A DNA stretch of 24,958 nt from a virus, in IMG/VR virus record IMGVR_UViG_3300037875_000405, positions 1-24,958 of that record. One strand, 5' to 3'. The position numbers and the translations under genes were made by a program. Numbering within the stretch: position 1 is the first letter of the stretch; each line of letters opens with the position of its first letter. Positions 4,730 to 24,861 of the stretch are shown one piece after another. The notes beneath the pieces were generated by a model. It made no database searches and was not told the origin of the DNA. It saw only the letters and a list, made by a program, of their open reading frames with translations.

Positions 4730-4748
4730 AATTTTCACCTCGTATTAA

Positions 4749-4757
4749 ATTATACAC
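4749..4757 (-). promoter_or_regulatory. Candidate late promoter (GTGTATAAT)
   Basis: On the minus strand CTCGTGTATAATTTAATACG lies 19 bases before the protease/scaffold start, leaving only a short leader with the GAGGTG ribosome site. There is no -35-like box at the right distance. Confidence 0.5.
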
Positions 4758-4788
4758 GAGATACATTAAAACATAGATAAAACGGGTT

Positions 4789-12333: not shown

Positions 12334-12820
12334 GTTCCTCTAAAATGTTTTGAATAAAATCCTTAATCTCATCTCGCCGTGGTTTTGCCATATAAACATC
12401 ATTGATCAATTTTAAATAGTCAAGCCGCATGTCTGGTGGTATTTCACTATCTAATAATTTTGCCATGTCGCGGTAATCAATATCCTCATAATTGATTTGA
12501 TCATCATCATGTTCCATATAATAAGACTCATCAAGTTGAGCCGGTTGCGTTATATTAATACGCACAGGGTCGTCACTTTGGGTAAAGTGATTGTCCCTTA
12601 CAAAATTTTTCATTCTATTAGAGAGATGGACCGCTAGGAAATTCTCTAACGGCCTTTCGCCGTCATAACGAGGCAATGCATCCATACAAATAATAAATGC
12701 CTCCTGCTTCATATCAGCCACTGTATACCCGTAAAATGTATACTTAGGGGCTGTGCGATCAACAACTCGCTGAATAATTTCAACGGTTTCTTCTTCTGTC
12801 ATATTTTCCGGTACTTGCAC
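12311..12820 (-). CDS. Sigma-70 region 2-like transcription factor (candidate late sigma)
   Basis: A 169-aa protein starting at GTG 12820 (AGGAG five bases upstream). Residues ~20-85 (YTFYGYTVADMKQEAFIICM, ALPRYDGERPLENFLAVHL, NRMKNFVRDN) match sigma region 2, which binds the RNA polymerase clamp and melts the -10 element. Region 4 is not visible, as in T4 gp55-type late sigma factors, which recognise only a -10-like element. That fits the GTGTATAAT motifs without a -35 box found upstream of the structural genes. The C-terminal third is acidic and unassigned. Confidence 0.75.
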   Translation of the reverse strand: MQVPENMTEEETVEIIQRVVDRTAPKYTFYGYTVADMKQEAFIICMDALPRYDGERPLENFLAVHLSNRMKNFVRDNHFTQSDDPVRINITQPAQLDESYYMEHDDDQINYEDIDYRDMAKLLDSEIPPDMRLDYLKLINDVYMAKPRRDEIKDFIQNILEEHGYYEEG

Positions 12821-15874: not shown

Positions 15875-15958
15875 CATAAGTCGTTGTACAGTATAGACTT
15901 AGAGCGATACTAGTGGGCTTTCGGCGACGTAAGTCGTTTGATAGCAACAACTTATATC
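15875..15958 (+). repeat. Early-region repeat copy 1 (diverged)
   Basis: Shares the CGGCGACGTAAGTC-TTTGATAGCAAC core with the other copies, but has CGTT for CCTT and an altered last arm. It ends 49 bases before the promoter at 16008. Confidence 0.75.
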
Positions 15959-16007
15959 AATCTTATATCAATCTTAGAAAAATCTTTTATTTTCTTGTGT
16001 AAAGCTA

Positions 16008-16036
16008 TTGACAAATGCATGAGATGTCGATATAAT
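16008..16036 (+). promoter_or_regulatory. Early promoter: TTGACA-17-TATAAT
   Basis: Both hexamers match the sigma-70 consensus exactly with 17-base spacing. GTCGA abuts the -10 box. Drives the 73-aa gene. Confidence 0.9.
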
Positions 16037-16077
16037 ACTTAGAGACAACAACGAACGACAAACAAGAAAGCAAAACA

Positions 16078-16299
16078 ATGTTCAACTCAATCGACGACAT
16101 CTTCGACAACATCAACTCTGACATCAAAGTAATTGGAAAAAGTATTTCAATTAAGTGGGATGACACTGACATCTACGATGGTGTAGTAGTATTGAACGAT
16201 TGGGATGGAAACGATGTTTACGTTTCCCCAATCACCAACAAAATTGTTGGATGGGGATTCTATGACAGTGCTTTGCATGGCATCGACAAGATTGCATAA
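16078..16299 (+). CDS. Small acidic early protein, 73 aa
   Basis: MFNSIDDIFDNINSDIKVIG..., with an ISIKWDDTDIYDGVVVLNDW core followed by beta-type sequence ending GIDKIA. The 5' leader is the A/C-rich type seen throughout this block, with only a weak AAGAAAG ribosome site. The WDDTDIYDGVVVL part loosely resembles the D-x-V-x-x-DG motif of the 61-65 aa paralogs that follow. Unknown function; probably an early host-interaction protein by position. Confidence 0.7.
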   Translation: MFNSIDDIFDNINSDIKVIGKSISIKWDDTDIYDGVVVLNDWDGNDVYVSPITNKIVGWGFYDSALHGIDKIA

Positions 16300-16317
16300 A
16301 AACTTTGAAAAACACTG

Positions 16318-16346
16318 TTGACAAACGGCTCAAATGCCGATATAAT
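16318..16346 (+). promoter_or_regulatory. Early promoter: TTGACA-17-TATAAT
   Basis: Exact consensus hexamers and spacing; TGCCGA directly precedes the -10 box. Confidence 0.9.
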
Positions 16347-16384
16347 ACTTAGAGACACAAACAACACAACAAAGGAAAAACAAA

Positions 16385-16570
16385 ATGATGAACTCAGCAG
16401 AATACACCGGCGAAACACTCATGGGCGAAGCAATCACAATCAAGGAAGATGACATGGTCATCATCGACGGAGTTGAATTCAACATCTCCGACGTTTACGA
16501 GGATGGCACATTCTTCGCCGTCTCCGCTGATGGAGAAGAAAACTTCTTCGAAATTGACGATATTGGTTAG
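16385..16570 (+). CDS. Small acidic early protein, DG-family paralog
   Basis: 61 aa, preceded by AAAGGAAAAACAAA. The core is IKEDDMVIIDGVEFNISDVY then EDGTFFAVSADGEENFFEIDDIG. The same pattern, D-[ML]-V-[IL]-[IV]-DG, a beta strand, then DGT-x-F and a final acidic D-[DN]-I, recurs in the genes at 16647 and 17587 and more loosely at 20708. It looks like a tiny five-stranded beta domain. Strongly acidic small phage proteins often bind host enzymes or mimic DNA, but no function is shown. A second ATG follows immediately. Confidence 0.75.
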   Translation: MMNSAEYTGETLMGEAITIKEDDMVIIDGVEFNISDVYEDGTFFAVSADGEENFFEIDDIG

Positions 16571-16578
16571 CATTGGCC

Positions 16579-16607
16579 TTGCAATTGGCGGACGTTTCTG
16601 CTATAAT
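16579..16607 (+). promoter_or_regulatory. Early promoter: TTGCAA-17-TATAAT
   Basis: The -35 is TTGCAA, the -10 is consensus, spacing 17. It starts eight bases after the preceding stop codon. Confidence 0.85.
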
Positions 16608-16646
16608 GCACCTATCACAAACAACACTATCAAGGACACAAGACAA

Positions 16647-16844
16647 ATGACCAACAACACACAAGCACCACAGGCAACGACAACTTACAACATCTTGACC
16701 GAAGATGGCACAATCAGCATCGGTGATATGGTGCTGATCGACGGCGATCACGTATGCGTTGACACACTGTACACTGACGGGACGATGTTCGTTGCTGATG
16801 ACAACGGGGATGTTGACGAAACACATGTTGACAATATTGGATAA
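16647..16844 (+). CDS. Small acidic early protein, DG-family paralog
   Basis: 65 aa from ATG 16647; the open frame extends further upstream into the previous gene and across the promoter, so the longer version is rejected. After MTNNTQAPQATTTYN comes TEDGTISIGDMVLIDGDHVC, then VDTLYTDGTMFVADDNGDVD and a C-terminal VDNIG. It is clearly paralogous to the proteins at 16385 and 17587. Function unknown. Confidence 0.75.
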   Translation: MTNNTQAPQATTTYNILTEDGTISIGDMVLIDGDHVCVDTLYTDGTMFVADDNGDVDETHVDNIG

Positions 16845-16963
16845 TATCCGCCAAACGCAGGATGCCATTACTTGTAGTGGACGATACGGTTCAGAGTAAC
16901 ACCGCCCTTTACCTGTTCCGATTTGCGGGAATAGGTGTCCCACCTAAAGGAATCAGCTAAGCC

Positions 16964-17050
16964 GACGTAAACCCTTACACAGTAACGACTTACGACACGG
17001 AAGGCCCGCCCCCGGCGACGTAAGTCCTTTGATACCAACAGGTTACGTCA
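16964..17050 (+). repeat. Early-region repeat copy 2
   Basis: About 87 nt with outer arms GACGTAAACC...GGTTACGTC, inner arms GACTTACG...CGTAAGTC and a GC-rich GGCCCGCC core. An upstream block (GTGTCCCACCTAAAGGAATC, from 16936) is also shared with copy 5. It ends 46 bases before the promoter at 17097. Confidence 0.9.
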
Positions 17051-17096
17051 TAATAAATATCTTTGTGATTTTCTTTTTATTCTTGTGGAAATACTA

Positions 17097-17125
17097 TTGA
17101 CAATCACGCGAATAGACGATATAAT
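17097..17125 (+). promoter_or_regulatory. Early promoter: TTGACA-17-TATAAT
   Basis: Exact consensus. An ATG (17132) lies six bases after the -10 box, at the expected transcription start. Confidence 0.9.
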
Positions 17126-17164
17126 ACATATATGACAAACGCAACAACAAACAAGGGAACGAAA

Positions 17165-17332
17165 ATGAACGACATTCAGAAATGTGAAAAAATTGCTTCA
17201 GAAGTTTCTGCAAAAAATGTTCCTTCTGCATTCGTTCGAGATCTGCTGATTCAACGGCTTTTGATGGAAAATGATCTGACGCCAACCGTTCAGCTTGTCG
17301 CGAATATTGAAAATCTTATTGAAAATCGATAA
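17165..17332 (+). CDS. Small early protein, IQKCE-family paralog
   Basis: 55 aa from ATG 17165 (AAGGGAACGAAA upstream). An in-frame ATG at 17132 lies at the predicted transcription start and would add 11 residues (MTNATTNKGTK). The protein is all-helical: MNDIQKCEKIASEVSAKN, then AFVRDLLIQRLLMENDLTP, then IENLIENR. It is paralogous to the product at 19124 (near-identical motif order) and to the N-terminal half of the 84-aa protein at 19969. Function unknown. Confidence 0.78.
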   Translation: MNDIQKCEKIASEVSAKNVPSAFVRDLLIQRLLMENDLTPTVQLVANIENLIENR

Positions 17333-17347
17333 ATAGTGATGTCGGGC

Positions 17348-17376
17348 TTCCAATACGCCGATGATTATGGTATCAT
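17348..17376 (+). promoter_or_regulatory. Early promoter (weak): TTCCAA-17-TATCAT
   Basis: Degenerate hexamers, but with the same ACGCCGAT spacer motif and TATGG before the -10 as its neighbours. An ATG (17383) lies six bases after the -10. Confidence 0.6.
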
Positions 17377-17412
17377 CCCGATATGACAAACAACAACACA
17401 AAGGAAACAAGA

Positions 17413-17523
17413 ATGGACACTATCAAACGAATCGCAAACATCGTCGCTTTTGTTATCGTGGCCGAAGTAATTCTTTTTACGATCTTCGGAATTATTCCGG
17501 AATTGTTAAAGCTAAGCTTGTAA
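17413..17523 (+). CDS. 36-aa single-span membrane peptide
   Basis: ATG 17413 has AAAGGAAACAAGA upstream; an in-frame ATG at 17383 would add MTNNNTKETR. The peptide begins MDTIKRIANIVAFVIVAEVI and continues LFTIFGIIPELLKLSL. Nearly all of residues 7-31 form one hydrophobic helix, after a positively charged N-terminus, so it should insert in the inner membrane. The next promoter overlaps its stop codon. Possible roles are superinfection exclusion or membrane modulation, but this is only inference. Confidence 0.65.
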   Translation: MDTIKRIANIVAFVIVAEVILFTIFGIIPELLKLSL

Positions 17524-17547
17524 TTCTGCCGATACTTATGGTATACT
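17518..17547 (+). promoter_or_regulatory. Early promoter: TTGTAA-18-TATACT
   Basis: The -35 box overlaps the stop of the 36-aa gene. The spacer contains TGCCGAT, and an ATG (17554) lies six bases after the -10 box. Confidence 0.7.
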
Positions 17548-17586
17548 GGTCATATGACAAACAACAACAACACAAAGGAAAACAAA

Positions 17587-17781
17587 ATGAGCAAAGCAAC
17601 AAAAGTAAATTCTCTGATTGCAGAAGACGGATTCACAGTATCTCTTAAGGATCTGGTTTTGGTTGATGGCAGCGAATTGTGCGTTGAAGAAATGTGGACC
17701 GATGGAACGGTTTTCGCCGGATGTCCAGACGGTGAATTAATTGAATTGGAAATAGATGACATTGAGCTTGCAATCTGTTAA
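17587..17781 (+). CDS. Small acidic early protein, DG-family paralog
   Basis: 64 aa from ATG 17587 (AAAGGAAAACAAA upstream). An in-frame ATG at 17554 at the predicted transcription start would add MTNNNNTKENK. The core is IAEDGFTVSLKDLVLVDGSE, then WTDGTVFAGCPDGELIELEI and a DDIELAIC tail. It follows the D-x-V-x-x-DG...DGT-x-F pattern of the genes at 16385 and 16647. Strongly acidic; function unknown. Confidence 0.75.
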   Translation: MSKATKVNSLIAEDGFTVSLKDLVLVDGSELCVEEMWTDGTVFAGCPDGELIELEIDDIELAIC

Positions 17782-17796
17782 TCGGTTTGGTACAAT
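17768..17796 (+). promoter_or_regulatory. Early promoter: TTGCAA-17-TACAAT
   Basis: The -35 lies inside the last codons of the preceding gene; spacing 17. Confidence 0.75.
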
Positions 17797-17834
17797 CCAT
17801 ACTCACGAACGACACAAGAAACAAAGGAAACAAG

Positions 17835-18050
17835 ATGAAACACTTCAACGTAACCGCTAAATGGCTCGACACTGACAAAGTGATGAATCATCAGAGCGTT
17901 CAGGAAAACCAGATTGATTTTGTCAATCAGACTTTCCACTACAACAATTTCTATCCTGCTCAACCAATCCAGAGCATTGAAAACGTCGATACCGGATATC
18001 TGGCGGCATTTGAAAGTTATTGCGACGAATTCGGAACGGCTGCCGAATAG
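17835..18050 (+). CDS. Hypothetical early protein, 71 aa
   Basis: Starts MKHFNVTAKWLDTDKVMNHQ after AAAGGAAACAAG. Middle part FVNQTFHYNNFYPAQPIQSI, acidic C-terminus. No close paralog in the window and no domain recognised. Confidence 0.7.
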   Translation: MKHFNVTAKWLDTDKVMNHQSVQENQIDFVNQTFHYNNFYPAQPIQSIENVDTGYLAAFESYCDEFGTAAE

Positions 18051-18052
18051 AC

Positions 18053-18081
18053 TTGACAGCGTTTCGGGCATACGCTAAAAT
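18053..18081 (+). promoter_or_regulatory. Early promoter: TTGACA-17-TAAAAT
   Basis: Consensus -35 two bases after the preceding stop codon; spacing 17. Confidence 0.75.
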
Positions 18082-18114
18082 GCCCGCATCTCTCACCTTT
18101 CAGGATTCAAACTC

Positions 18115-18330
18115 ATGATCAGGCCCGTCGCTCACGTCACTTTCCCCGGTGGATATCCGTTGTTCTACTATGTCGAATCGGATAACGGAGAATTTTACAG
18201 TTGTCCGTCGTGCGTCAATCAGAATCGTGTTGGCCGAAATGTCAAAGCCGCTATTGGCCGTGTCAATTATGAGAACGACAATCTCACTTGTGAGATTTGC
18301 GAGAAAACAGTCGAACCAGCATATTCTTGA
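18115..18330 (+). CDS. Zinc-ribbon-like early protein, 71 aa
   Basis: Contains two CxxC pairs, SCPSCVNQ (about residues 30-33) and TCEICEKT (about 59-62), separated by 25 residues, the spacing of a small zinc ribbon. The N-terminal FPGGYPLFYYVESDNGEFY is beta-like. The ribosome site is weak. Small zinc ribbons in phages often act on transcription or as inhibitors; here the function is unknown. The stop codon lies in the first of three tandem hairpins. Confidence 0.75.
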   Translation: MIRPVAHVTFPGGYPLFYYVESDNGEFYSCPSCVNQNRVGRNVKAAIGRVNYENDNLTCEICEKTVEPAYS

Positions 18331-18385
18331 GACTCGGTCTCAATACGAGTGAGACACGTAGTGTCTTACCCGACCCTGTCGGGTG
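18327..18385 (+). other. Three tandem hairpins at the end of the zinc-ribbon gene
   Basis: TTGAGAC-TCG-GTCTCAA, AGACAC-GTA-GTGTCT and CCCGAC-CCT-GTCGGG follow one another, each a perfect 6-7 bp stem with a 3-nt loop. There is no T-run, so this looks like a transcript-stabilising or processing structure rather than a standard terminator. Repeat copy 3 begins 16 bases later. Confidence 0.65.
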
Positions 18386-18400
18386 ATGTGACGGCAAATC

Positions 18401-18486
18401 GACGTAAACCCTTACCACGTAAGGACTTACGACACGGAAGGCCCGCCTCCGGCGACATAAGTCCTTTCATACCAACAGGTTATGTC
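18401..18486 (+). repeat. Early-region repeat copy 3
   Basis: Same layout as copy 2. The last stem is GACATAA/TTATGTC where copy 2 has GACGTAA/TTACGTC, a compensatory pair change. It ends 78 bases before the promoter at 18565, and the intervening spacer is shared with copies 4 and 5. Confidence 0.92.
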
Positions 18487-18564
18487 AATTTGTTATAGCA
18501 ACTTGCATACCAAAAAAAACCTTGAAAACTTTCTAATTTAAGTTAAAAAAAGAGGACAGTAGCC

Positions 18565-18593
18565 TTGCGAAATGCCGATCATTATAATATAAT
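18565..18593 (+). promoter_or_regulatory. Early promoter: TTGCGA-17-TATAAT
   Basis: Part of the shared AGTAGCCTTGC-AAATGCCGAT block that follows repeat copies 3, 4 and 5. Confidence 0.8.
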
Positions 18594-18629
18594 GCAAGCC
18601 TAACGAACGACACTTCTTAAGGGATTGAC

Positions 18630-18773
18630 ATGACGAACAGCTTTGACGAAATTCACAGCGACGAATTGGCTGAACTTTTCAATTATGAGTGCGAGCAGGA
18701 TGCCGCAAACGACGAATGGTACGAAATGGATCGGGAGGAAATTAATAAAGAACTTCAGGAATTGGCAAGTTAA
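18630..18773 (+). CDS. Small acidic early protein, FDEI-family paralog, 47 aa
   Basis: Starts MTNSFDEIHSDELAELFNYE and ends EINKELQELAS. It is very acidic and entirely helical. The N-terminal [FI]-DEI-x-x-[DE]-E motif recurs in the 57-aa gene at 21225 and the 51-aa gene at 21576, and LQEL near the C-terminus recurs in the latter. No function known. Confidence 0.7.
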   Translation: MTNSFDEIHSDELAELFNYECEQDAANDEWYEMDREEINKELQELAS

Positions 18774-18776
18774 AGG

Positions 18777-18805
18777 TTGACGGGCAGGCAGGTTTCTGAT
18801 ACAAT
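18777..18805 (+). promoter_or_regulatory. Early promoter without an evident gene: TTGACG-17-TACAAT
   Basis: Good hexamers and spacing three bases after the preceding stop. Downstream, the first ATG is followed at once by TGA, and no frame longer than about 10 codons occurs before repeat copy 4. Confidence 0.65.
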
Positions 18806-18811
18806 ACACAC

Positions 18812-18893
18812 GACTTTTTCTTAAAAAAGAGAAAACCAATGTGAAATTTGAGAGGGCGGGAATATCCCGATAAAAAACCTAATCCTCGGCTGG
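18812..18893 (+). other. Possible short non-coding transcript region
   Basis: Between an orphan promoter and repeat copy 4. It holds an A/T hairpin (TTTTTCTT with AAGAGAAAA) and CGGGA-ATA-TCCCG, but no recognisable gene. Confidence 0.35.
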
Positions 18894-18980
18894 AACGTAA
18901 CCTCTTACCATATAACGACTTACGGCGAAAACGGCCCGCCCCCCGTGTCGTAAGTCCTTTGATAGCAACGGGTTACGTCA
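18894..18980 (+). repeat. Early-region repeat copy 4
   Basis: Outer arms CGTAACC...GGTTACG and inner arms GACTTACG/CGTAAGTC are intact; the core is GGCCCGCC. It ends 78 bases before the promoter at 19059. Confidence 0.92.
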
Positions 18981-19058
18981 ATTTTCTGTAAGCAAATCTT
19001 GTACCAAAAAAAACTTTGGATACTTTTGGATTTTAGGCCGAAAAGGTGGACAGTAGCC

Positions 19059-19087
19059 TTGCAAAATGCCGATAAATATGGTATAAT
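19059..19087 (+). promoter_or_regulatory. Early promoter: TTGCAA-17-TATAAT
   Basis: The spacer begins AATGCCGATAAATATGG. An ATG (19094) lies six bases after the -10 box. Confidence 0.88.
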
Positions 19088-19123
19088 ACTTATATGACAA
19101 ACAACAACACACAAGGCAACACA

Positions 19124-19297
19124 ATGACAGATATCCAGAAATGTGAAATGATCGCTCGCACCGTAGCCAATGAAGGCATTGAATCTGGATTCGTTCAGAG
19201 CTTGCTCATTCAGAAATTCCTGAAGGCAAATGATCTCGTCCCTACTGTTGAGGTTATCTGCTTTGTTGAGAATCTTATCGAAAAGATGGGCGATTAG
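19124..19297 (+). CDS. Small early protein, IQKCE-family paralog
   Basis: 57 aa from ATG 19124 (GGCAACACA upstream, a poor ribosome site). The in-frame ATG at 19094, exactly at the predicted transcription start, would add MTNNNTQGNT. MTDIQKCEMIARTVANEG, then FVQSLLIQKFLKANDLVPTV and VENLIEKMGD match the protein at 17165 motif for motif. It is predicted helical; function unknown. The start choice is uncertain. Confidence 0.75.
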   Translation: MTDIQKCEMIARTVANEGIESGFVQSLLIQKFLKANDLVPTVEVICFVENLIEKMGD

Positions 19298-19299
19298 CC

Positions 19300-19328
19300 T
19301 TGACAAATGGCACTTGTTGTGCTATAAT
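19300..19328 (+). promoter_or_regulatory. Early promoter: TTGACA-17-TATAAT
   Basis: Exact consensus directly after the preceding stop. An ATG (19335) lies six bases after the -10 box. Confidence 0.9.
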
Positions 19329-19334
19329 ACACAT

Positions 19335-19385
19335 ATGAGAAGTCGAGACTCATTAACATTCGACGGGAGAAGCGGAACTCCTTAA
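19335..19385 (+). CDS. Possible 16-aa upstream reading frame
   Basis: ATG at the predicted transcription start opens MRSRDSLTFDGRSGTP and stops 43 bases before the 62-aa gene, in a different frame. If translated as a leaderless message it could regulate the downstream gene. No ribosome site is present. Confidence 0.3.
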   Translation: MRSRDSLTFDGRSGTP

Positions 19386-19428
19386 CAACCGCACCGCACA
19401 ACACACAACACTACTAAGGTAAGAGAAA

Positions 19429-19617
19429 ATGAAACTTGATATCCAAATCCGAGCTAACGGAAAAGTTCGAAACGTTATGAGCGTTAGCCATACCTCTATC
19501 GTTATGAGCGGTTCTGGAATGCTGTTCAACGGGCATCAGGTTTTGAAATTCCGCAGACTTTGCACTGAAGACGAAAAACTTATCTGGTCTCGCAGAATTG
19601 AGCTACTTGAGGCTTGA
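19429..19617 (+). CDS. Hypothetical early protein, 62 aa
   Basis: Starts MKLDIQIRANGKVRNVMSVS with AAGGTAAGAGAAA upstream. Two short beta segments (SIVMSGSGMLFNGHQVLKF) precede a C-terminal helix ending RRIELLEA. Basic overall, in contrast to most neighbours. The long 5' leader (about 95 nt) is unusual for this block and carries the 16-codon upstream frame. No family recognised. Confidence 0.68.
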   Translation: MKLDIQIRANGKVRNVMSVSHTSIVMSGSGMLFNGHQVLKFRRLCTEDEKLIWSRRIELLEA

Positions 19618-19642
19618 CAAACGCCGATAAATCTGCTATAAT
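19614..19642 (+). promoter_or_regulatory. Early promoter: TTGACA-17-TATAAT
   Basis: The -35 overlaps the preceding stop; the spacer starts AACGCCGATAAATC. Confidence 0.9.
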
Positions 19643-19678
19643 ACACACACAAAAACGATACTTTGAAAGGTAAGAAAA

Positions 19679-19906
19679 ATGAGTTACATCCTCGCAAAAA
19701 AAATCTTCGATGATCGCATCGGCAAATCTCTGGCAGCATACGACAAGTATGTTCAGCGAAACGGCGTACCAACCGCCGAAGATATGAAGCAGTTTCTGGC
19801 TAGCATTCCAGACCTGCGAAAGAAAAGCCCAAAACTCGGCTGGTGGGGCGTAAAAGTCTACAACGGTTGGCTGTATACTACCACAAAACAAACTATCTGG
19901 AGTTGA
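19679..19906 (+). CDS. Hypothetical early protein, 75 aa
   Basis: Starts MSYILAKKIFDDRIGKSLAA after AAAGGTAAGAAAA. The N-terminal helix and middle helix (AEDMKQFLASIPDLRKK) are followed by a Trp-rich C-terminus (LGWWGVKVYNGWLYTTT). Basic. No family recognised. The next promoter overlaps its stop. Confidence 0.7.
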   Translation: MSYILAKKIFDDRIGKSLAAYDKYVQRNGVPTAEDMKQFLASIPDLRKKSPKLGWWGVKVYNGWLYTTTKQTIWS

Positions 19907-19932
19907 CAAACCTCCGGCGATTTTGGTACAAT
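19903..19932 (+). promoter_or_regulatory. Early promoter: TTGACA-18-TACAAT
   Basis: The -35 overlaps the preceding stop codon; GGCGAT lies in the spacer. Confidence 0.8.
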
Positions 19933-19968
19933 ACACACTCACAAGTCACATTAACAGGAAGCAACAAA

Positions 19969-20223
19969 ATGCAGAAGTCACTCGAAACAATCGCTCGCGA
20001 AGTCGGAAGCCTGAACATTCCAAGCAATTTTGTCCGCAGTCTCAAGATCATCCTAGAGTTGAACATTGCCGGTGCAACGTCCGAAGATGTTGCAAAGGTT
20101 GAAGCTCTGATCGATGGACCAACACCGGAACCAACACCGGAACCAAAACCGGAACCAGTAGTCTCACCGCAAAGCGTAGGCTTCCTCGGTTCCGCATGGC
20201 AGGCGTTTCGACCTAGATTCTAG
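19969..20223 (+). CDS. IQKCE-family paralog with Pro/Glu-rich tail, 84 aa
   Basis: From ATG 19969; the frame is open further upstream across the promoter, but that part is not expected to be transcribed. Residues 1-50 (MQKSLETIAREVGSLNIPSN, FVRSLKIILELN, VAKVEALIDG) match the helical proteins at 17165 and 19124. A repetitive linker (PTPEPTPEPKPEP) then leads to a short C-terminal segment GFLGSAWQAFRPRF. The linker plus tail suggests a domain that tethers a short binding peptide. Function unknown. Confidence 0.72.
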   Translation: MQKSLETIAREVGSLNIPSNFVRSLKIILELNIAGATSEDVAKVEALIDGPTPEPTPEPKPEPVVSPQSVGFLGSAWQAFRPRF

Positions 20224-20240
20224 ACTGTAAAGGAAACAAA

Positions 20241-20432
20241 ATGAGACGAAGAAAACACAAGAACGACCACAATCATTCAAAAAATGGTTATATTGCTGGA
20301 AATCCCCGATACTCACGCAAAGGAAAAAAAATGGAATCTTTACCAGAACCGCCAAATCCTGAATTGGAAGAAATGAAAGAATTGTGGGAGGACGTGCGGG
20401 CGTTGTATCGTTATATTCACGCGAATGACTGA
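20241..20432 (+). CDS. Hypothetical early protein, 63 aa, possible dual start
   Basis: ATG 20241 follows AAAGGAAACAAA, 17 bases after the preceding stop, so it is probably cotranscribed. The N-terminal 30 residues are very basic (MRRRKHKNDHNHSKNGY). A second in-frame ATG at 20331 has its own AAAGGAAAAAAA and would yield a 33-aa acidic helical peptide (MESLPEPPNPELEEMKELWE...). No family recognised. Confidence 0.6.
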   Translation: MRRRKHKNDHNHSKNGYIAGNPRYSRKGKKMESLPEPPNPELEEMKELWEDVRALYRYIHAND

Positions 20433-20473
20433 TTGTGAGAATAAGTGTCTCACCTAAAGGAATCGGATAAGCT

Positions 20474-20560
20474 GACGTAAACCCTTGGTATCAAACGACT
20501 TACGACACGGAAGGCCCGCCCACGGTGACGTAAGTCCTTTGGTGGTAACGACTTACGTCA
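20474..20560 (+). repeat. Early-region repeat copy 5
   Basis: The last arm pair is a perfect 10-bp stem, GACGTAAGTC with GACTTACGTC. The upstream block CACCTAAAGGAATC is shared with copy 2; the downstream 76-base spacer is shared with copies 3 and 4. Confidence 0.92.
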
Positions 20561-20636
20561 ATGTCTCATAGCAAACCCTATGCCAAAAAAACTTTGGATA
20601 CTTTTGGATTTGGGGGTAAAAATGTGGACCGCAGCC

Positions 20637-20665
20637 TTGCAAAATGTCGATACATATGATATAAT
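20637..20665 (+). promoter_or_regulatory. Early promoter: TTGCAA-17-TATAAT
   Basis: The spacer begins AATGTCGATACATATGA, closely like the promoters at 19059 and 22241. Confidence 0.88.
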
Positions 20666-20707
20666 ACATGTATTGAAAGTTTAAGAGTTTTTGAAAGTAG
20701 AAACAAA

Positions 20708-20887
20708 ATGAGATTTTTTAACAACGAAACTGAAACGACCGTCGAACTCAAGCGGGGCGACATTATCGCTCTGGCCGATGGTGTCAAGGTTTTTATCGAA
20801 GCACTTTCCAGCACAGGAAACGTGTGGTTTACACTGAACAAAAAGTTTCAGTGCGTTGACTTCAAAACAATCACGAAAATTGCTTAA
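20708..20887 (+). CDS. Small early protein, distant DG-family member, 59 aa
   Basis: Starts MRFFNNETETTVELKRGDII, followed by ALADGVKVFIEALSSTGNVW and a beta C-terminus ending KTITKIA. The K-x-GD-I-x-x-x-x-DGV-x-V pattern resembles the acidic paralogs at 16385, 16647 and 17587 but is much less acidic. Eleven bases separate it from the next gene, so the two form a small operon. Function unknown. Confidence 0.7.
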   Translation: MRFFNNETETTVELKRGDIIALADGVKVFIEALSSTGNVWFTLNKKFQCVDFKTITKIA

Positions 20888-20897
20888 GGACAAAAAA

Positions 20898-21164
20898 ATG
20901 CCATTGTTTCAATTTCGACAGAATAACTCTGGTGGGCGTGACATCGGACCCAAAAACATTGTGGTCAAGGCTGACGATGCGGCTCAGGCAAATGATATTG
21001 CTCAGAATTCTGATCACATCTATTTTCATGGTGTTGCCAAGGGACTCGATTGCGACTGCTGCGGTGATCGTTGGCACGCTGTCCACGATTTCGATGCCGA
21101 CGATATTTGGGGCGTGAATATGGACAACCCGAATTCTGATGATTTTTTGAAGATTAACTGTTGA
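20898..21164 (+). CDS. Conserved-type phage protein with CDCCGDRW motif, 88 aa
   Basis: From ATG 20898 (AAGGACAAAAAA upstream), MPLFQFRQNNSGGRDIGPKN... The central IVVKADDAAQANDIAQNSDH looks like a small alpha/beta unit. It is followed by IYFHGVAKGLDCDCCGDRW with three cysteines likely to bind metal. I associate this arrangement (a ...DGVxxGxDCxCCGDRW... string) with small uncharacterised phage proteins, from memory only. The next promoter overlaps its stop codon. Confidence 0.75.
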   Translation: MPLFQFRQNNSGGRDIGPKNIVVKADDAAQANDIAQNSDHIYFHGVAKGLDCDCCGDRWHAVHDFDADDIWGVNMDNPNSDDFLKINC

Positions 21165-21189
21165 CAGTCGGGCGAAATGCCGATACAAT
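21161..21189 (+). promoter_or_regulatory. Early promoter: TTGACA-17-TACAAT
   Basis: TTGACA includes the TGA stop of the preceding gene; TGCCGA abuts the -10 box. Confidence 0.85.
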
Positions 21190-21224
21190 ACTCAGACACT
21201 TTTCATTTTTGAAAGATTGACACG

Positions 21225-21398
21225 ATGAACATCTTTGACGAAATCCAGTGTGAAGAAACAGCGGAAGCTCAGCACCTTTTCAACCCGGAACCAAAAATGG
21301 AAGAAATGGCATTCATGCAGGAATGGATGGAAGAACTGAGCAAACAGGAAGAACTGGACAGGATGGCGGATTTAATGGACGCCGAAGTTGATTTTTAG
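21225..21398 (+). CDS. Small acidic early protein, FDEI-family paralog, 57 aa
   Basis: Starts MNIFDEIQCEETAEAQHLFN and has a Met/Glu-rich helical C-terminus (MEEMAFMQEWMEEL). Shares the [FI]-DEI-x-x-E-E N-terminus with the genes at 18630 and 21576. No standard ribosome site is seen (GAAAGATTGACACG). Function unknown. Confidence 0.68.
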   Translation: MNIFDEIQCEETAEAQHLFNPEPKMEEMAFMQEWMEELSKQEELDRMADLMDAEVDF

Positions 21399-21419
21399 AA
21401 AAACAGCCACCCAAACAAG

Positions 21420-21525
21420 CCTTTGGCACGGGCACAACGCCAGTAGCGTAGCTCGCTGAAAACTTGCCAATATAGACTGGTGGCAAGGCTGAGAGATTCG
21501 CGGGGTTCGATTCCCCGCCAAACCT
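21420..21525 (+). tRNA. tRNA-like RNA 1 (degenerate, class-II layout)
   Basis: A perfect T-arm (CGGGG-TTCGATT-CCCCG, 21501-21517) is followed by CCAAACC and a T-run. The matching 5' strand CCTTTGG at 21420-21426 pairs at only five of seven positions. Between them lie AGCG/CGCT with a 5-nt loop and a 7-bp arm CTTGCCA/TGGCAAG like an oversized variable arm. No normal 7-nt anticodon loop can be drawn, so the identity is unknown. There is no own promoter; it follows the 57-aa gene. Confidence 0.45.
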
Positions 21526-21540
21526 TTTTAAGTTTTACTG

Positions 21541-21569
21541 TTGACAACTCACCTCTCATCTGGTATAAT
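21541..21569 (+). promoter_or_regulatory. Early promoter: TTGACA-17-TATAAT
   Basis: Exact consensus. The gene's ATG (21576) lies six bases after the -10 box. Confidence 0.9.
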
Positions 21570-21575
21570 ACTGAC

Positions 21576-21731
21576 ATGCAAAACATCATCGACGAAATTC
21601 AGGTTGAAGACAATGTGGCTCTTGAAGCATGGGAAACCGTGCAGGAGTTGACTGACGCGGAACGCGATCAGTGGTTTGAGGAAGAAATTGCTGCGGCGAA
21701 TGCTGAACTTCAGGAATTAGTCAACAGTTAG
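21576..21731 (+). CDS. Small acidic early protein, FDEI-family paralog, probably leaderless
   Basis: 51 aa, starting MQNIIDEIQVEDNVALEAWE and ending ANAELQELVNS. The ATG lies at the predicted transcription start, so the message has no room for a ribosome site. An upstream in-frame extension through the tRNA-like region is rejected because it precedes the promoter. It is acidic, helical and paralogous to the products at 18630 and 21225. Function unknown. Confidence 0.72.
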   Translation: MQNIIDEIQVEDNVALEAWETVQELTDAERDQWFEEEIAAANAELQELVNS

Positions 21732-21733
21732 GG

Positions 21734-21762
21734 TTGACATTGGCGGGGAAACCTGCTATAAT
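21734..21762 (+). promoter_or_regulatory. Early promoter of tRNA-like RNA 2: TTGACA-17-TATAAT
   Basis: Exact consensus. The -10 box ends seven bases before the first base of the tRNA-like RNA, so +1 should be its mature 5' end. Confidence 0.9.
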
Positions 21763-21768
21763 ACACAT

Positions 21769-21867
21769 GAGTTGGTGACCCAGAATAGGCTATGGGCGTT
21801 GAATGACTTCATGTCATAAAAGTCGGGGAAGAACCGACATATGCAGGTTCAAGTCCTGCCCAACTCA
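21769..21867 (+). tRNA. tRNA-like RNA 2, class II, possible UCA anticodon
   Basis: A 7-bp acceptor stem is perfect (GAGTTGG with CCAACTC), with discriminator A and no encoded CCA. The D-arm is CCCA/TGGG with GG in the loop. The anticodon arm is ATGA/TCAT around CTTCATG, which reads UCA at the anticodon position, although C and G at the loop ends also pair, leaving five bases. A long variable arm (GTCGG/CCGAC) and canonical T-arm (GCAGG-TTCAAGT-CCTGC) follow. A UCA anticodon would read UGA (opal suppressor or selenocysteine type), but position 37 is U, which is atypical. The anticodon reading is uncertain. Confidence 0.62.
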
Positions 21868-22116
21868 CTTACAATCTTGAGAACGCCACCCAAATCCGCT
21901 CCTGGCAAGAGCAATACTTGGGCCGCAAAGATCCGTGCTTGAATTGCCGGTGAGCGGTTCGACATTTAGGAGAGTAGTCCAATGTGCTACTAAAGGCTGG
22001 AATCCTTGACGCTCCCGCGAGCGGAAGCAAGGTAGGTCGTATTGAATCGCGGGCACGTCCAAGAAATGGGCCGCATCGTGCGGACTGGGGCGTGATAAAC
22101 AATCTCAATCGTGAGA
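21868..22116 (+). ncRNA. GC-richer structured region, candidate non-coding RNA
   Basis: About 250 nt without a gene, transcribed after tRNA-like RNA 2. Stable hairpins follow each other: CCCAA/TTGGG (21889/21918) enclosing GCTC/GAGC (21898/21909), AGTAG/CTACT (21973/21987), CGCTC/GAGCG (22010/22019), CCGCA/TGCGG (22071/22079) and TCTCA/TGAGA (22103/22112). Its start, GCCACCCAAA with partly matching sequence for about 33 nt, also occurs at 21406 before tRNA-like RNA 1. Not assigned to any known RNA family. Confidence 0.5.
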
Positions 22117-22202
22117 GTCGTAAGTCCTTGCCCTGTAAGGACTTACGACACGGGGGGCCGGTCTCCGGCGACGTAAGTCCTTTGATAGTAGGGACTTATG
22201 AC
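22117..22202 (+). repeat. Early-region repeat copy 6
   Basis: Has the clearest alternating arms: CGTAAGTCCTT, AAGGACTTACG, CGTAAGTCCTT and then GGGACTTATGAC. The first three are exact complements, so arm 2 can pair with arm 1 or arm 3 over 11 bp. It ends 38 bases before the promoter at 22241. Confidence 0.93.
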
Positions 22203-22240
22203 TTTCTTGATATATTTGTGGGATTTATTCACGTTTAGCC

Positions 22241-22269
22241 TTGCAAAATGACGATAAATATTGTATAAT
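22241..22269 (+). promoter_or_regulatory. Early promoter: TTGCAA-17-TATAAT
   Basis: The spacer begins AATGACGATAAATATTG. The gene's ATG (22276) lies six bases after the -10 box. Confidence 0.88.
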
Positions 22270-22275
22270 ACACAT

Positions 22276-22518
22276 ATGAGAATTAAACACAAACGCATCG
22301 TAGAGCTGTTCAACTACAATACACGTCTGATGATATCGGAGGTCAGTGTTCCAGGGCATCGGTTCATGTCTATAGGGACTTTTGACGGAGAAGTCAAGTG
22401 GTTTGTTGGGCGATTTTCCCCTAGTGGACAAATTGTCACGTTCAACGTAGGCAGCGAAAGATATATCCGCAAAGTATGGAAAAACTTCAAGAATTCGGAT
22501 TGCGTTTCTCCACGGTAG
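22276..22518 (+). CDS. Basic early protein, 80 aa, probably leaderless
   Basis: Starts MRIKHKRIVELFNYNTRLMI at the predicted transcription start, with no ribosome site and no later good start. The sequence is basic and beta-rich (FMSIGTFDGEVKWFVGRFSP, then IVTFNVGSERYIRKVW). It looks like a small beta-barrel of a nucleic-acid-binding type, but no family is recognised. The next promoter overlaps its 3' end. Confidence 0.72.
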   Translation: MRIKHKRIVELFNYNTRLMISEVSVPGHRFMSIGTFDGEVKWFVGRFSPSGQIVTFNVGSERYIRKVWKNFKNSDCVSPR

Positions 22519-22528
22519 TTGGTATAAT
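22500..22528 (+). promoter_or_regulatory. Promoter of tRNA-like RNA 3: TTGCGT-17-TATAAT
   Basis: Lies inside the 3' end of the 80-aa gene; the -10 box ends eight bases before the tRNA-like 5' end. Confidence 0.7.
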
Positions 22529-22535
22529 ACATTTC

Positions 22536-22630
22536 GACCGAGTCTCCAAGCAGACAATTGGTTAAAGGGCGTCGTGGCTACGGCTTGGTATTGTAGGCGT
22601 CTATAGCGGGTTCGAATCCCGAATCGGTCT
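22536..22630 (+). tRNA. tRNA-like RNA 3, class-II layout, unassigned anticodon
   Basis: Acceptor strands GACCGAG and ATCGGTC pair at six of seven positions, and the T-arm GCGGG-TTCGAAT-CCCGA has a canonical loop. The D-loop region holds AATTGGTTAAAGG. The anticodon position is occupied by GTCGT/ACGGC closing only four bases, so no anticodon can be read. A small variable arm TAG/CTA follows. The total length of 95 nt fits class II tRNAs. Transcription would begin at or within a base of its 5' end. Confidence 0.52.
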
Positions 22631-22660
22631 TTTTGAAAGTCTTTTTGTAGGAGTGTTGAA

Positions 22661-22873
22661 ATGGCGTATTGTGAAGATTTCCCGTGTTGTGGTCACGAAG
22701 CTGGTTGTTGCCCCAATTTTGACGACGACGGACGACAAACTGATATGGTTTGCGTTTGTGGTGCGAGATTGCCTGTTGACAATCCTTCATCTTGTTGTGA
22801 TCATTGTCTCGGAATCAAGAACGATTACGATTCTTATGATTGGGATACTTTTGACGGTCAAGGAGAATGGTGA
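22661..22873 (+). CDS. Cysteine-rich probable zinc-binding protein, 70 aa
   Basis: Starts MAYCEDFPCCGHEAGCCPNF after GTAGGAGTGTTGAA, one of the few strong ribosome sites in this block. Nine more residues on, MVCVCGARLPVDN and CCDHCLGI add further cysteines, giving three Cys clusters that could hold two zinc ions. I associate such CEDFPCCGHE...CxCG...CxHC proteins with small uncharacterised phage proteins, from memory only. The C-terminus is acidic and Tyr/Asp-rich. It is probably cotranscribed with tRNA-like RNA 3. Confidence 0.78.
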   Translation: MAYCEDFPCCGHEAGCCPNFDDDGRQTDMVCVCGARLPVDNPSSCCDHCLGIKNDYDSYDWDTFDGQGEW

Positions 22874-22957
22874 CGTAACTATAGGCTCTCGCTCGACTTA
22901 TATCGAGCCGGGGCTGCCCCCGGCGACGTAAGTCCTTTGATAGCAACGACTTATGAC
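22871..22957 (+). repeat. Early-region repeat copy 7
   Basis: The first half has diverged and forms GGCTC/GAGCC instead; the second half (CCCCGGCGACGTAAGTCC onward) is intact. It begins in the stop codon region of the cysteine-rich gene and ends 46 bases before the promoter at 23004. Confidence 0.88.
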
Positions 22958-23003
22958 AATTTGATAATATTTTGTTTTTTCTTTTTATTTTAAGTGAATA
23001 GGG

Positions 23004-23031
23004 TTGCAATCTTTTGCCGATATGATATAAT
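23004..23031 (+). promoter_or_regulatory. Early promoter: TTGCAA-16-TATAAT
   Basis: The spacer contains TTGCCGATATGA, nearly identical to the promoter at 24833. The gene's ATG (23038) lies six bases after the -10 box. Confidence 0.85.
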
Positions 23032-23037
23032 ACAAGT

Positions 23038-23232
23038 ATGAAAAACACACAAACAAAAACATTTGTCACTGACTGCGACTACTGTGGTGACATCTCATTA
23101 TGCTTTAACGACAATTTTGGTGGCACATGCTGTAAGTGCTGTGGCGATGTTGCCACGGGCGAACCGTGCCCCGATGAAGATCATGATAGACCGGCAGAAC
23201 ATCCGGTGTTTGATGTGTCCTATCCGATCTAA
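23038..23232 (+). CDS. Cysteine-rich probable zinc-finger protein, 64 aa, probably leaderless
   Basis: MKNTQTKTFVTDCDYCGDIS contains a first CxxC, and GGTCCKCCGDVATGEPCPDE a second cluster, the layout of a small zinc ribbon. The ATG lies at the predicted transcription start and has no ribosome site. The C-terminus is acidic then Pro-rich (HDRPAEHPVFDVSYPI). Function unknown. Its stop codon lies in the loop of a terminator-like hairpin. Confidence 0.75.
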   Translation: MKNTQTKTFVTDCDYCGDISLCFNDNFGGTCCKCCGDVATGEPCPDEDHDRPAEHPVFDVSYPI

Positions 23233-23245
23233 TCGGATTGCTTTT
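23222..23245 (+). terminator. Terminator-like hairpin overlapping the zinc-finger gene stop
   Basis: ATCCGAT-CTA-ATCGGAT is a perfect 7-bp stem followed by TGCTTTT. The stop codon TAA spans the loop and second arm. Confidence 0.55.
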
Positions 23246-23254
23246 AATGTGTAT

Positions 23255-23287
23255 AGCCAGTAAGCCAGTGAGTTAGCGAGTTAGCCA
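23255..23287 (+). repeat. Short tandem octamer-like repeat
   Basis: AGCCAGTA, AGCCAGTG, AGTTAGCG and AGTTAGCC follow each other between two transcription units. Function unknown. Confidence 0.6.
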
Positions 23288-23324
23288 ATTTTCAAAAACT
23301 TTCCATAATCTTGGGGATTTACTA

Positions 23325-23353
23325 TTGACCACCGCGTGAAATGACGATATAAT
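23325..23353 (+). promoter_or_regulatory. Early promoter: TTGACC-17-TATAAT
   Basis: ATGACGA abuts the -10 box, and the downstream ATATAGAGACGC resembles the start regions after 16036 and 16346. Confidence 0.85.
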
Positions 23354-23390
23354 ATATAGAGACGCGAACGATACAACAAAGGAAAACAAA

Positions 23391-23609
23391 ATGAAGACAC
23401 TACAAGAACGAATCAACGAGTTGGAAACACCGGCAAAATTCTACCTGCAAAATCTCTATGATGCTCTGGCTGAAGCCATTGTGATTCCAAACGAGATGTT
23501 GCCGGTCGATTTACGTCAATACAAAGAATTCGACACGGGATCAATTGGATCTGATGACGGTGAAGTATATGGGCGAACATGTGCAGAGTTATTGAAAAGG
23601 AACAAATAA
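23391..23609 (+). CDS. Hypothetical early protein, 72 aa
   Basis: Starts MKTLQERINELETPAKFYLQ after AAAGGAAAACAAA. An amphipathic N-terminal half (FYLQNLYDALAEAIVIPNEM) precedes a polar Gly/Asp-rich stretch and YGRTCAELLKRNK. Its stop overlaps the next start (TAATG), so the two are translationally coupled. No family recognised. Confidence 0.75.
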   Translation: MKTLQERINELETPAKFYLQNLYDALAEAIVIPNEMLPVDLRQYKEFDTGSIGSDDGEVYGRTCAELLKRNK

Positions 23610-23827
23610 TGAGCACTCAACTGATGACAGCAACAAACGACAGCGGAACAATTTCAATGACTGGTTATCATCGTGAAAAACAGCGACGATACCAGATCAC
23701 AGTAGTGGGCCAAACTGGGCTTGACATTACAAAGACTGTTTATCTGGATGTTGACGCCGAAACTATTGCAAACATGCAGCGATGTGTCGATGAATATCGC
23801 GAACTTTACTCTGATTCGAGTGATTAG
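23609..23827 (+). CDS. Hypothetical early protein, 72 aa
   Basis: ATG 23609 overlaps the preceding stop and has AGGAACAAATA upstream; the longer frame from 23579 is rejected. MSTQLMTATNDSGTISMTGY leads to a beta segment (YQITVVGQTGLDITKTVYLD), then a helix (ETIANMQRCVDEYRELYSD). It resembles a small alpha/beta protein; function unknown. Confidence 0.75.
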   Translation: MSTQLMTATNDSGTISMTGYHREKQRRYQITVVGQTGLDITKTVYLDVDAETIANMQRCVDEYRELYSDSSD

Positions 23828-23830
23828 CGG

Positions 23831-23859
23831 TTGACGAGCCTTTTCAAGTGTGTTACAAT
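23831..23859 (+). promoter_or_regulatory. Early promoter: TTGACG-17-TACAAT
   Basis: Begins three bases after the preceding stop codon. Confidence 0.78.
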
Positions 23860-23893
23860 ACACACTCACAAACCTTTTTTGGAGATTGAACGA

Positions 23894-24124
23894 ATGAAGA
23901 TTGAAACGACGTACAATGTTGGCAAAGTCAAGTATATTTCTTGCTGGACTGATTTGGAGATCACATGCGAAAACGGCGACAAGATTGTTGTTCCGATGTC
24001 AATTGCGGACAAGCAGAGTCTGGCTGATACTTTGCTGAATCGAGTCAAGACCGACAAGAAACGTGAGTTGGAAAGTCTGAAAAGTGATTTGGAAGAACTC
24101 GAAGCGAAAGAAAATGAGGAATGA
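23894..24124 (+). CDS. Hypothetical early protein with C-terminal coiled coil, 76 aa
   Basis: From ATG 23894 (GGAGATTGAACGA upstream). An N-terminal beta domain (KIETTYNVGKVKYISCWTDL, EITCENGDKIVVPMS) is followed by a charged helix (KRELESLKSDLEELEAKENE) likely to form a coiled coil. It is the first gene of a four-gene unit running to 24623. No family recognised. Confidence 0.74.
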   Translation: MKIETTYNVGKVKYISCWTDLEITCENGDKIVVPMSIADKQSLADTLLNRVKTDKKRELESLKSDLEELEAKENEE

Positions 24125-24128
24125 TTTA

Positions 24129-24311
24129 ATGTTCACGCATGTACAGTTTTTTCGACCGTCCACAAATTCAAATATCTTCATAGAAGCACCGTTTGAGTTT
24201 GGCGAAGATGCTCATATGGACGAACGTTTTATATCATGGACAATTGAAGAATATTCAGACTGGATTCCAAAAGCTTATTTAGTAAAGGAAAATTATGGAA
24301 GCGACGATTAA
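24129..24311 (+). CDS. Hypothetical early protein, 60 aa
   Basis: ATG 24129 has GAGGA eight bases upstream and follows the preceding stop by four bases. MFTHVQFFRPSTNSNIFIEA leads to an acidic C-terminus (WTIEEYSDWIPKAYLVKENY). It overlaps the next start by 17 bases. Function unknown. Confidence 0.65.
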   Translation: MFTHVQFFRPSTNSNIFIEAPFEFGEDAHMDERFISWTIEEYSDWIPKAYLVKENYGSDD

Positions 24312-24432
24312 AGTAGGAACCGAGTTGGAGATCGGCACCGTTATTAAGATCCTGCATGACGGTGTTATGATTAAGAAGGCAGGAAATGAGTTTAAAGTAT
24401 CTTTTAAAACTGTAGAAAGAGAAGTTCAATGA
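24295..24432 (+). CDS. Hypothetical small beta protein, 45 aa
   Basis: ATG 24295 is preceded by AAAGGAAAATT and overlaps the preceding gene by 17 bases. MEATIKVGTELEIGTVIKIL, then HDGVMIKKAGNEFKVSFKTV. The alternating pattern fits an SH3-like or KOW-like mini-barrel. A distant relation to the DG family is possible through the HDGVMI strand. The stop overlaps the next start (ATGA). Confidence 0.68.
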   Translation: MEATIKVGTELEIGTVIKILHDGVMIKKAGNEFKVSFKTVEREVQ

Positions 24433-24623
24433 TTAAGACACACAAGCGAATTGGTAGCACTGTAAAGTTTATGTATCCACGGCATGGGAAATATAATATT
24501 CTTCGGAATGTTATTGGTGTTGTGGTTGACAAGGGACAGGGGCCGAATGGTCCATATCTGACCGTTGACGAGGTCCGAGGTGGCACCCGCTGCTTCTCGA
24601 CTAAGAAAATTGTTGATATGTAA
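24429..24623 (+). CDS. Hypothetical SH3-like early protein, 64 aa
   Basis: ATG 24429 overlaps the preceding stop, indicating coupled translation; AGAGAAG lies upstream. Basic, with MIKTHKRIGSTVKFMYPRHG, VIGVVVDKGQGPNGPYLTVD and RGGTRCFSTKKIVDM, typical of a small beta-barrel that could bind nucleic acid or protein. No family named with confidence. Confidence 0.72.
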   Translation: MIKTHKRIGSTVKFMYPRHGKYNILRNVIGVVVDKGQGPNGPYLTVDEVRGGTRCFSTKKIVDM

Positions 24624-24633
24624 ATTGTGTTGT

Positions 24634-24723
24634 GTCGCCGTAAGTCCCTGCCCCGTAAGGGGTTAGGGCTGGCGGGGCGGGCCGGTTTTGTCGTAAGTCC
24701 TTTACTGCCATACACTTACGTCG
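24634..24723 (+). repeat. Early-region repeat copy 8
   Basis: CGTAAGTCCCT and CGTAAGTCCTTT arms are present, with a very GC-rich middle (GGCGGGGCGGGCCGG). The final arm is ACTTACGTC. It starts 11 bases after the last gene of the preceding unit. Confidence 0.88.
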
Positions 24724-24751
24724 ATTGTTATTTTTGAGAACTTTTTTATTT

Positions 24752-24790
24752 GGGTGGGATGTACCACCCAACCCTAAAGGGTTGCGATTT
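24752..24790 (+). terminator. Two tandem hairpins, possible terminator
   Basis: GGGTGG/CCACCC is followed at once by AACCCT-AA-AGGGTT and GCGATTTT. It lies between repeat copy 8 and the last promoter; the T-run is short. Confidence 0.45.
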
Positions 24791-24832
24791 TATGAGACAG
24801 CCAGCGAAAGTTAGCGAAAATTGATAAAGTTC

Positions 24833-24861
24833 TTGACACTGGTTTGCCGATATGATATAAT
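24833..24861 (+). promoter_or_regulatory. Early promoter: TTGACA-17-TATAAT
   Basis: Exact consensus; the spacer contains TTGCCGATATGA as at 23004. Confidence 0.9.

Follow-up and report, generated by a model that had tools for sequence, protein, structure and literature searches.

On sigma70 promoters, CRP acts at -61.5 and also at positions still farther upstream (PMC2859248). At these class I activator sites the dyad of a dimeric protein lies upstream of the -35 box and the face of the helix matters (PMC2859248), and the phage DNA element described here appears alike in both respects. Contact with the alpha C-terminal domain, as made by CRP, is also the model proposed for the element as a putative activator site. 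Compared with CRP sites, the element has two large dyads of a different sequence, lies farther upstream and occurs in a phage clade. In phage phi29, protein p4 is needed at the late promoter A3, which has a poor -35 box (PMC3100819). The p4 sites are likewise paired inverted repeats upstream of a promoter; they have the A-tract form CTTTTT-N15-AAAATG and belong to one switch region (PMC3100819), whereas the element is present as many copies of 11-7-11 dyads that head separate modules.

Repeats with sigma70-like promoters between small genes are also known from variable regions of T4-like phages. These promoter-early stem-loops, or PeSLs (Arbiol 2010 and Comeau 2014, as cited in PMC4503421), mediate module shuffling, as is suggested for the element. 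Phage attC clusters without an integrase are likewise palindromic repeats of similar size and one orientation which separate modules of small genes (PMC9892861); the element differs from them in having no GTTRRRY boxes and no integrase and in being phased to promoters. REP/BIME repeats are short palindromes too, often paired and intergenic (PMC3733652), but the element has a fixed 7-nt centre, a GC-rich middle and promoter polarity, and is found almost only in viral records. The bacterial viruses that carry it form a large clade without cultured members, represented here almost entirely by metagenomes.

Eight copies of the element in the window

The window is the whole stretch of DNA that was analysed, a 24,958-base IMG/VR virus record. 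Up to about 13.9 kb its minus strand encodes the terminase large subunit, a head maturation protease and virion proteins. Beyond an HNH gene, small genes on the plus strand form an array, with strong predicted promoters of the sigma70 type. Eight copies of the element were located, all in one orientation (plus strand, as are their promoters), with 65-85% identity to a reference copy over 65 nt. The associated promoters are near-consensus, with TTGACA, TTGCAA or TTGCGA and TATAAT separated by 16-17 nt; distances below are from the element edge.

Copy 1 (15875..15956), the most diverged, has two dyads with 7-nt spacers and a 24-bp centre, and lies 51 nt from a predicted TTGACA-17-TATAAT promoter (16008..16036). 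The same promoter sequence and spacing were predicted 49 nt from copy 2 (16966..17047; promoter 17097..17125) and 112 nt from copy 8 (24639..24720; promoter 24833..24861). Copy 3 (18403..18484) is 80 nt from a predicted TTGCGA-17-TATAAT promoter (18565..18593). Predicted TTGCAA-17-TATAAT promoters lie 81 nt from copy 4 (18896..18977; promoter 19059..19087), 79 nt from copy 5 (20476..20557; promoter 20637..20665) and 40 nt from copy 6 (22119..22200; promoter 22241..22269), which has the strongest single-strand fold among the eight (-53.9 kcal/mol). Copy 7 (22874..22955) is 48 nt from a predicted TTGCAA-16-TATAAT promoter (23004..23031), and its other edge adjoins the end of the upstream ORF 22661-22873.

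The original prediction described copies with a GC-rich core, none inside a gene, each 38-109 nt upstream of a promoter. The copy centres are indeed 58-83% GC against 43% GC in the region, the copies are intergenic (copy 7 touches the stop codon of its upstream ORF), and the measured distance from element edge to -35 is 40-112 nt, close to that given. The statement that no T-run follows the copies holds with one exception, a weak terminator-like match over copy 6. The alternating complementary arms exist, as two dyads with a fixed 7-nt spacer, but without base-pair covariation. The earlier observation is right and extends beyond what the window could show.

Anatomy of the element

The 82-bp register consists of arm 1 (11 bp), 7 nt, arm 2 (11 bp) and a 24-bp GC-rich centre, followed by arm 3 (11 bp), 7 nt and arm 4 (11 bp). 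All arms are variants of CGTAAGTCCTT read inward; each half is thus a dyad, CGTAAGTCCTT-N7-AACGACTTACG, with 11-bp arms. In the logo the symmetry runs two or three bases past the arms (TGA...TCA). From one dyad centre to the other the distance is 51-53 bp, or about five turns of the helix. Whether the two dyads are helically phased to each other was considered and set aside: the gap peaks of 24 and 13 differ by 11, but gaps of 21-23 are also common.

The length of the spacer was examined in units with one mismatch or less. In the fetched loci, 1,170 units had a 7-nt spacer and about 15 in total had any other length between 0 and 20 nt, a count that is partly pre-selected where loci were fetched by the dyad pattern and contain one 7-nt match by construction. 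The other units of these loci, and the loci fetched by terminase, showed the same spacer behaviour. Among 156 hold-out loci, 524 units had the 7-nt spacer and 3 had other lengths.

The search for covariation between arms covered 181 distinct elements whose centre is 24 bp long and 49 whose centre measures 23 bp. No covariation was seen for nested or for side-by-side pairing, and several arm positions were anticorrelated. The single-strand folds are strong (z -2 to -6.8); since no compensatory change was found, they are attributed to the dyad symmetry. The absence of any co-varying arm pair argues that the element is not an RNA or single-strand hairpin. No match of the elements to Rfam was obtained.

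Promoter polarity and helical phasing

Most arrays of the element adjoin predicted sigma70-type promoters. Promoters were taken as near-consensus when they matched at 10 of 12 positions or better and pointed away from the element. In 352 of the 355 elements having such a promoter, it was present on one side only. The distance from element edge to -35 peaked at 18, 28-29, 38-40, 47-51, 58-60 and 68-71, with almost none at 41-46 and 52-57. After spacers sharing more than 30% of their 6-mers had been removed, 111 spacers from 64 loci of the main clade remained; their best period was 10.1 bp (nR2 46), a phasing value that none of 2000 smooth resamplings reached. With the phase preset and a 10.5-bp period, phasing was recovered in 37 hold-out spacers unlike any earlier ones (p=0.0018), 21 of which fell within 1.5 bp of the lattice where 10.6 were expected. 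Differences between distances within a locus, which require no anchor, also clustered at multiples of 10.5 bp (n=94; R 0.45, nR2 18.9). All the window distances (51, 49, 80, 81, 79, 40, 48 and 112) are within 1.9 bp of the lattice.

The phasing has a limited range. The first periodogram, which took in every distance, was broad, with a period of 9.5-12, and became sharp only for distances under about 85 bp; above about 85 bp no overall phasing was seen. In the sub-clade with gaps of 12-14, phasing appeared at a lower promoter threshold (8 of 2000 nulls), and in the sub-clade with gaps of 19-21 it was not significant.

As at the sites of upstream activators, a two-fold symmetric site of the protein-binding type lies upstream of -35 and, in the main clade, its distance to the promoter steps by one helical turn. 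Steps of one turn imply that what is bound at the element must face what is bound at the promoter. By analogy with known activators, such phasing with sigma70-type promoters is characteristic of a regulator that contacts RNA polymerase from upstream.

The -35 boxes were compared between element-linked and element-free promoters. TTGCAA and TTGACA numbered 21 and 72 at the former and 15 and 179 at the latter (Fisher p=0.0009, ignoring relatedness). In the window, TTGCAA was counted at 5 of 8 element-linked promoters and at 2 of 13 others (p=0.056). With the same caveat on relatedness, the higher frequency of the weaker TTGCAA box at element-linked promoters favours activation over repression.

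Distribution of the element in the phage clade

An 18-base pattern of the element matched 40 stretches in viral_contigs, where about 1.5 were estimated by chance, and the majority of these stretches show the complete four-arm layout. In 346 fetched loci (3.4 Mb), drawn in part from the matches listed for general dyad patterns, 646 elements were found on 177 loci. In an earlier, smaller set, one search found 158 elements in the real sequence and 0 in shuffled sequence; the repeat is therefore far beyond chance. A relative of the window's large terminase was present in 39 of 40 tested records (26 to 100% identity), which indicates that the element marks one deep phage clade. The bacterial genome collection gave only two matches, both on contigs that look viral by gene content, and no near matches were seen in INPHARED phages or PLSDB plasmids.

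Two genomes that could be read almost whole carry the element only in one array near structural genes. G003 (157 kb; terminase 89% identical to that of the window) has six elements, all at 116-123 kb, and G009 has six, all at 144-153 kb. A further relative, G006 (167 kb), whose terminase shares 79% identity, carries numerous promoters of this type and no element. The original prediction had tied a functional role to the occurrence of the repeat in related phages; most of them carry it, with this close relative as an exception. Several G006 promoters are preceded upstream by a different GC-rich repeat flanked by TTGACA...TGTCAA. This other repeat suggests that the dyads are replaceable and that the GC-rich centre may have a role of its own.

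Exchange of modules at the element

In one G003 element the upstream flank and body correspond to window copy 2 (95%), whereas the downstream flank is that of copy 4; in a second, the upstream flank of copy 5 is followed by a leader like that of copy 7. At the G003 elements that match window copies 1 and 8, both flanks agree. The mixed flanks indicate that gain or loss of modules runs from one element to another. A mobile repeat carrying promoter-gene modules had been among the roles suggested earlier; the gain and loss of modules between the window and G003 bears this out in part, but no recombinase was found. A search for the tyrosine recombinase family Phage_integrase (PF00589) in 30 records, several of 138-174 kb, gave none.

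The resemblance to PeSLs is partial. As in PeSLs, a strong predicted sigma70-like promoter is present in the repeat unit and modules are exchanged at the repeat, the latter in one pair of relatives. A terminating stem-loop is not apparent from the letters of the elements, which have neither covariation nor a T-run.

It is possible, though we hold it only tentatively, that a single element serves throughout the clade both as a phased dock for a regulator and as the crossover point for modules. If so, an incoming module would automatically fall under the same control. A border that holds recombination homology together with a control site suggests how variable modules could be exchanged without losing regulation.

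A probable binding site for an upstream regulator and its alternatives

The copies are probably double-stranded binding sites of a putative dimeric regulator, which would most likely be an upstream activator. The protein-binding locus named in the original prediction is strongly supported by the invariant 7-nt spacer, the lack of covariation and the helical phasing to predicted promoters. Most likely, the element is a phased twin-dyad regulatory site, a new family within a known kind of control element, and also a border for module exchange. In the proposed mechanism, two dimers, or a tetramer, of a putative sequence-specific protein would occupy the two dyads of each copy. From its upstream position the bound protein would face the RNA polymerase holding the sigma70-type promoter and most likely activate that promoter, in the way that class I activators contact the C-terminal domain of the alpha subunit. 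In the commonest cases the near dyad centre would lie about 68, 78, 89 or 99 bp before the transcription start. Each site would govern the first promoter of one module, whose genes are small and probably early, and the sites, being homologous repeats at module borders, would double as joints for module gain and loss. The results suggest that a protein docking at the site controls, and probably switches on, the small early gene modules. Several observations count against this explanation: many of the linked promoters match the full consensus and should need no activator, the close relative G006 lacks the element, the phasing is not significant for gaps of 19-21 or beyond about 85 bp, and the comparison of gene content described below points to no clear regulator.

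The same type of site could instead be bound by a protein that represses or times the promoters, for instance through loops from element to element or by wrapping of the DNA, and is removed at some stage of infection. The phasing, the twin dyads about five turns apart and the presence of several copies within 0.5-1.8 kb would fit such a role; as the sites are found 40-112 bp before -35 and do not overlap the promoter, and the linked promoters tend to weaker rather than stronger -35 boxes, we regard it as unlikely. Recombination alone would need neither a 7-nt spacer nor 10.5-bp steps to the promoter, which makes it improbable that the element is chiefly a joint at which homologous recombination swaps modules as PeSLs do, with dyads of no regulatory role. 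The G003 elements that join flanks of different window copies (2 to 4; 5 to a copy-7-like leader), and the restriction to one array in each genome, where promoters and small genes abound, would nevertheless suit a joint of this kind.

A terminator, an insulator hairpin or a transcript processing site is suggested by the stable folds and by the location between modules. The stem-loops of PeSLs are described as terminators; the element differs from them in lacking a T-run and base-pair covariation and in having dyads of the protein-binding type phased to the promoter. A GC stem followed by a T-run, as in an intrinsic terminator, was not found at the copies, apart from the weak match over copy 6. 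The folds are a consequence of the dyads, no Rfam match was obtained, and a loop in RNA would have no need of a spacer of just 7 nt. The hairpin reading was rejected for lack of covariation, and an RNA element of these kinds is very improbable. The RNA processing or stability role of the original prediction is not supported, given the missing compensatory changes, and an insulator is not needed and alone would leave the phasing unexplained. An integron-like attC site, or another tyrosine-recombinase core site, was also rejected and is very unlikely. The element recalls attC in its arm-spacer-arm layout and folded form, 11-7-11 dyads are like the core sites of tyrosine recombinases, and modules are separated by the element. 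However, the arms, whose logos read CGTAAGTCCTT and AACGACTTACG, have no GTTRRRY/RYYYAAC boxes (PMC9892861), the stem is not kept by pairing, and the phasing to promoters would be left unexplained. PF00589 is absent from the 30 records, which alone is not excluding since attC clusters without an integrase exist.

Candidate binders and host

From sequence alone, hundreds of loci have yielded the footprint of a putative regulator together with its working geometry, and this footprint can serve directly as bait in the search for the protein and its host. Among the genes common to G003 and G009 that G006 lacks, no clear regulator that binds DNA was recognised. A D5-like HTH protein (window 11539-12333) and a sigma-like protein (12311-12820) are encoded beside the terminase and conserved in a large part of the clade. 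As the binder, the D5-like protein was rejected since it is also present in G006, which has no element; the sigma-like protein was tried along with it and not adopted. The structural model of the D5-like protein (pLDDT 82) gave no significant PDB match, with the HK97 small terminase among the top weak ones, and the protein may be a small terminase.

The same dyad geometry was found in 10 of 293 Planctomycetota and 1 of 298 Pseudomonadota genomes (Fisher p 0.006), a count that leaves out the two viral-looking contigs. A possibility raised by this geometry is that the element copies the site of a host regulator. One element-bearing contig is binned with a Planctomycetaceae genome, and these matches give a weak hint of Planctomycetota as the host.

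Promoter motif and alternative repeat

Across the clade, roughly one in two distinct TTGACA/TATAAT promoters has the motif CGATA, frequently in the longer form GCCGATA, between the -35 and -10 hexamers. When distinct promoters were counted across the window (16008-24861) and all clade loci, the motif was present in 54% of the 300 with a 16-nt spacer and in 38% of the 191 with a 17-nt spacer, against a chance expectation of roughly 1%. The closely related G006 lacks the dyad element and has a different GC-rich repeat upstream of its promoters. This repeat, ACCCGGCCGGG..CCCGG with TTGACA/TGTCAA on its flanks, occurs at 4745-4792, 7869-7916, 9605-9652 and 10894-10941 of the G006 locus L400.

Other features of the window and clade

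A Sigma70-region-2-like protein (12311-12820, minus strand) and a D5-like HTH/coiled-coil protein (11539-12333, minus strand), the latter possibly the small terminase, are kept upstream of the terminase across much of the clade. A degenerate or unusual tRNA-like gene at 21769-21867 matched the Rfam tRNA model at 28.5 bits, just below the 29-bit cut-off; ARAGORN called no tRNA. Two further tRNA-like stretches, recognized by eye from T-arm-like CGGGGTTCGATTCCCCG (21430-21525) and GCGGGTTCGAATCCCG (22538-22632), were called by none of the tools used.

Occurrence in bacterial assemblies

Two viral-looking contigs carrying the element (L135 and L136) were binned into metagenome-assembled genomes of Planctomycetaceae and Thalassolituus, respectively. 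Dyads of the form GTAAGYCNTT-N7-AANGRYTTAC are scattered across Planctomycetota chromosomes (L409-L419), where they frequently end in AATGGCTTAC, and are commoner there than in Pseudomonadota chromosomes.
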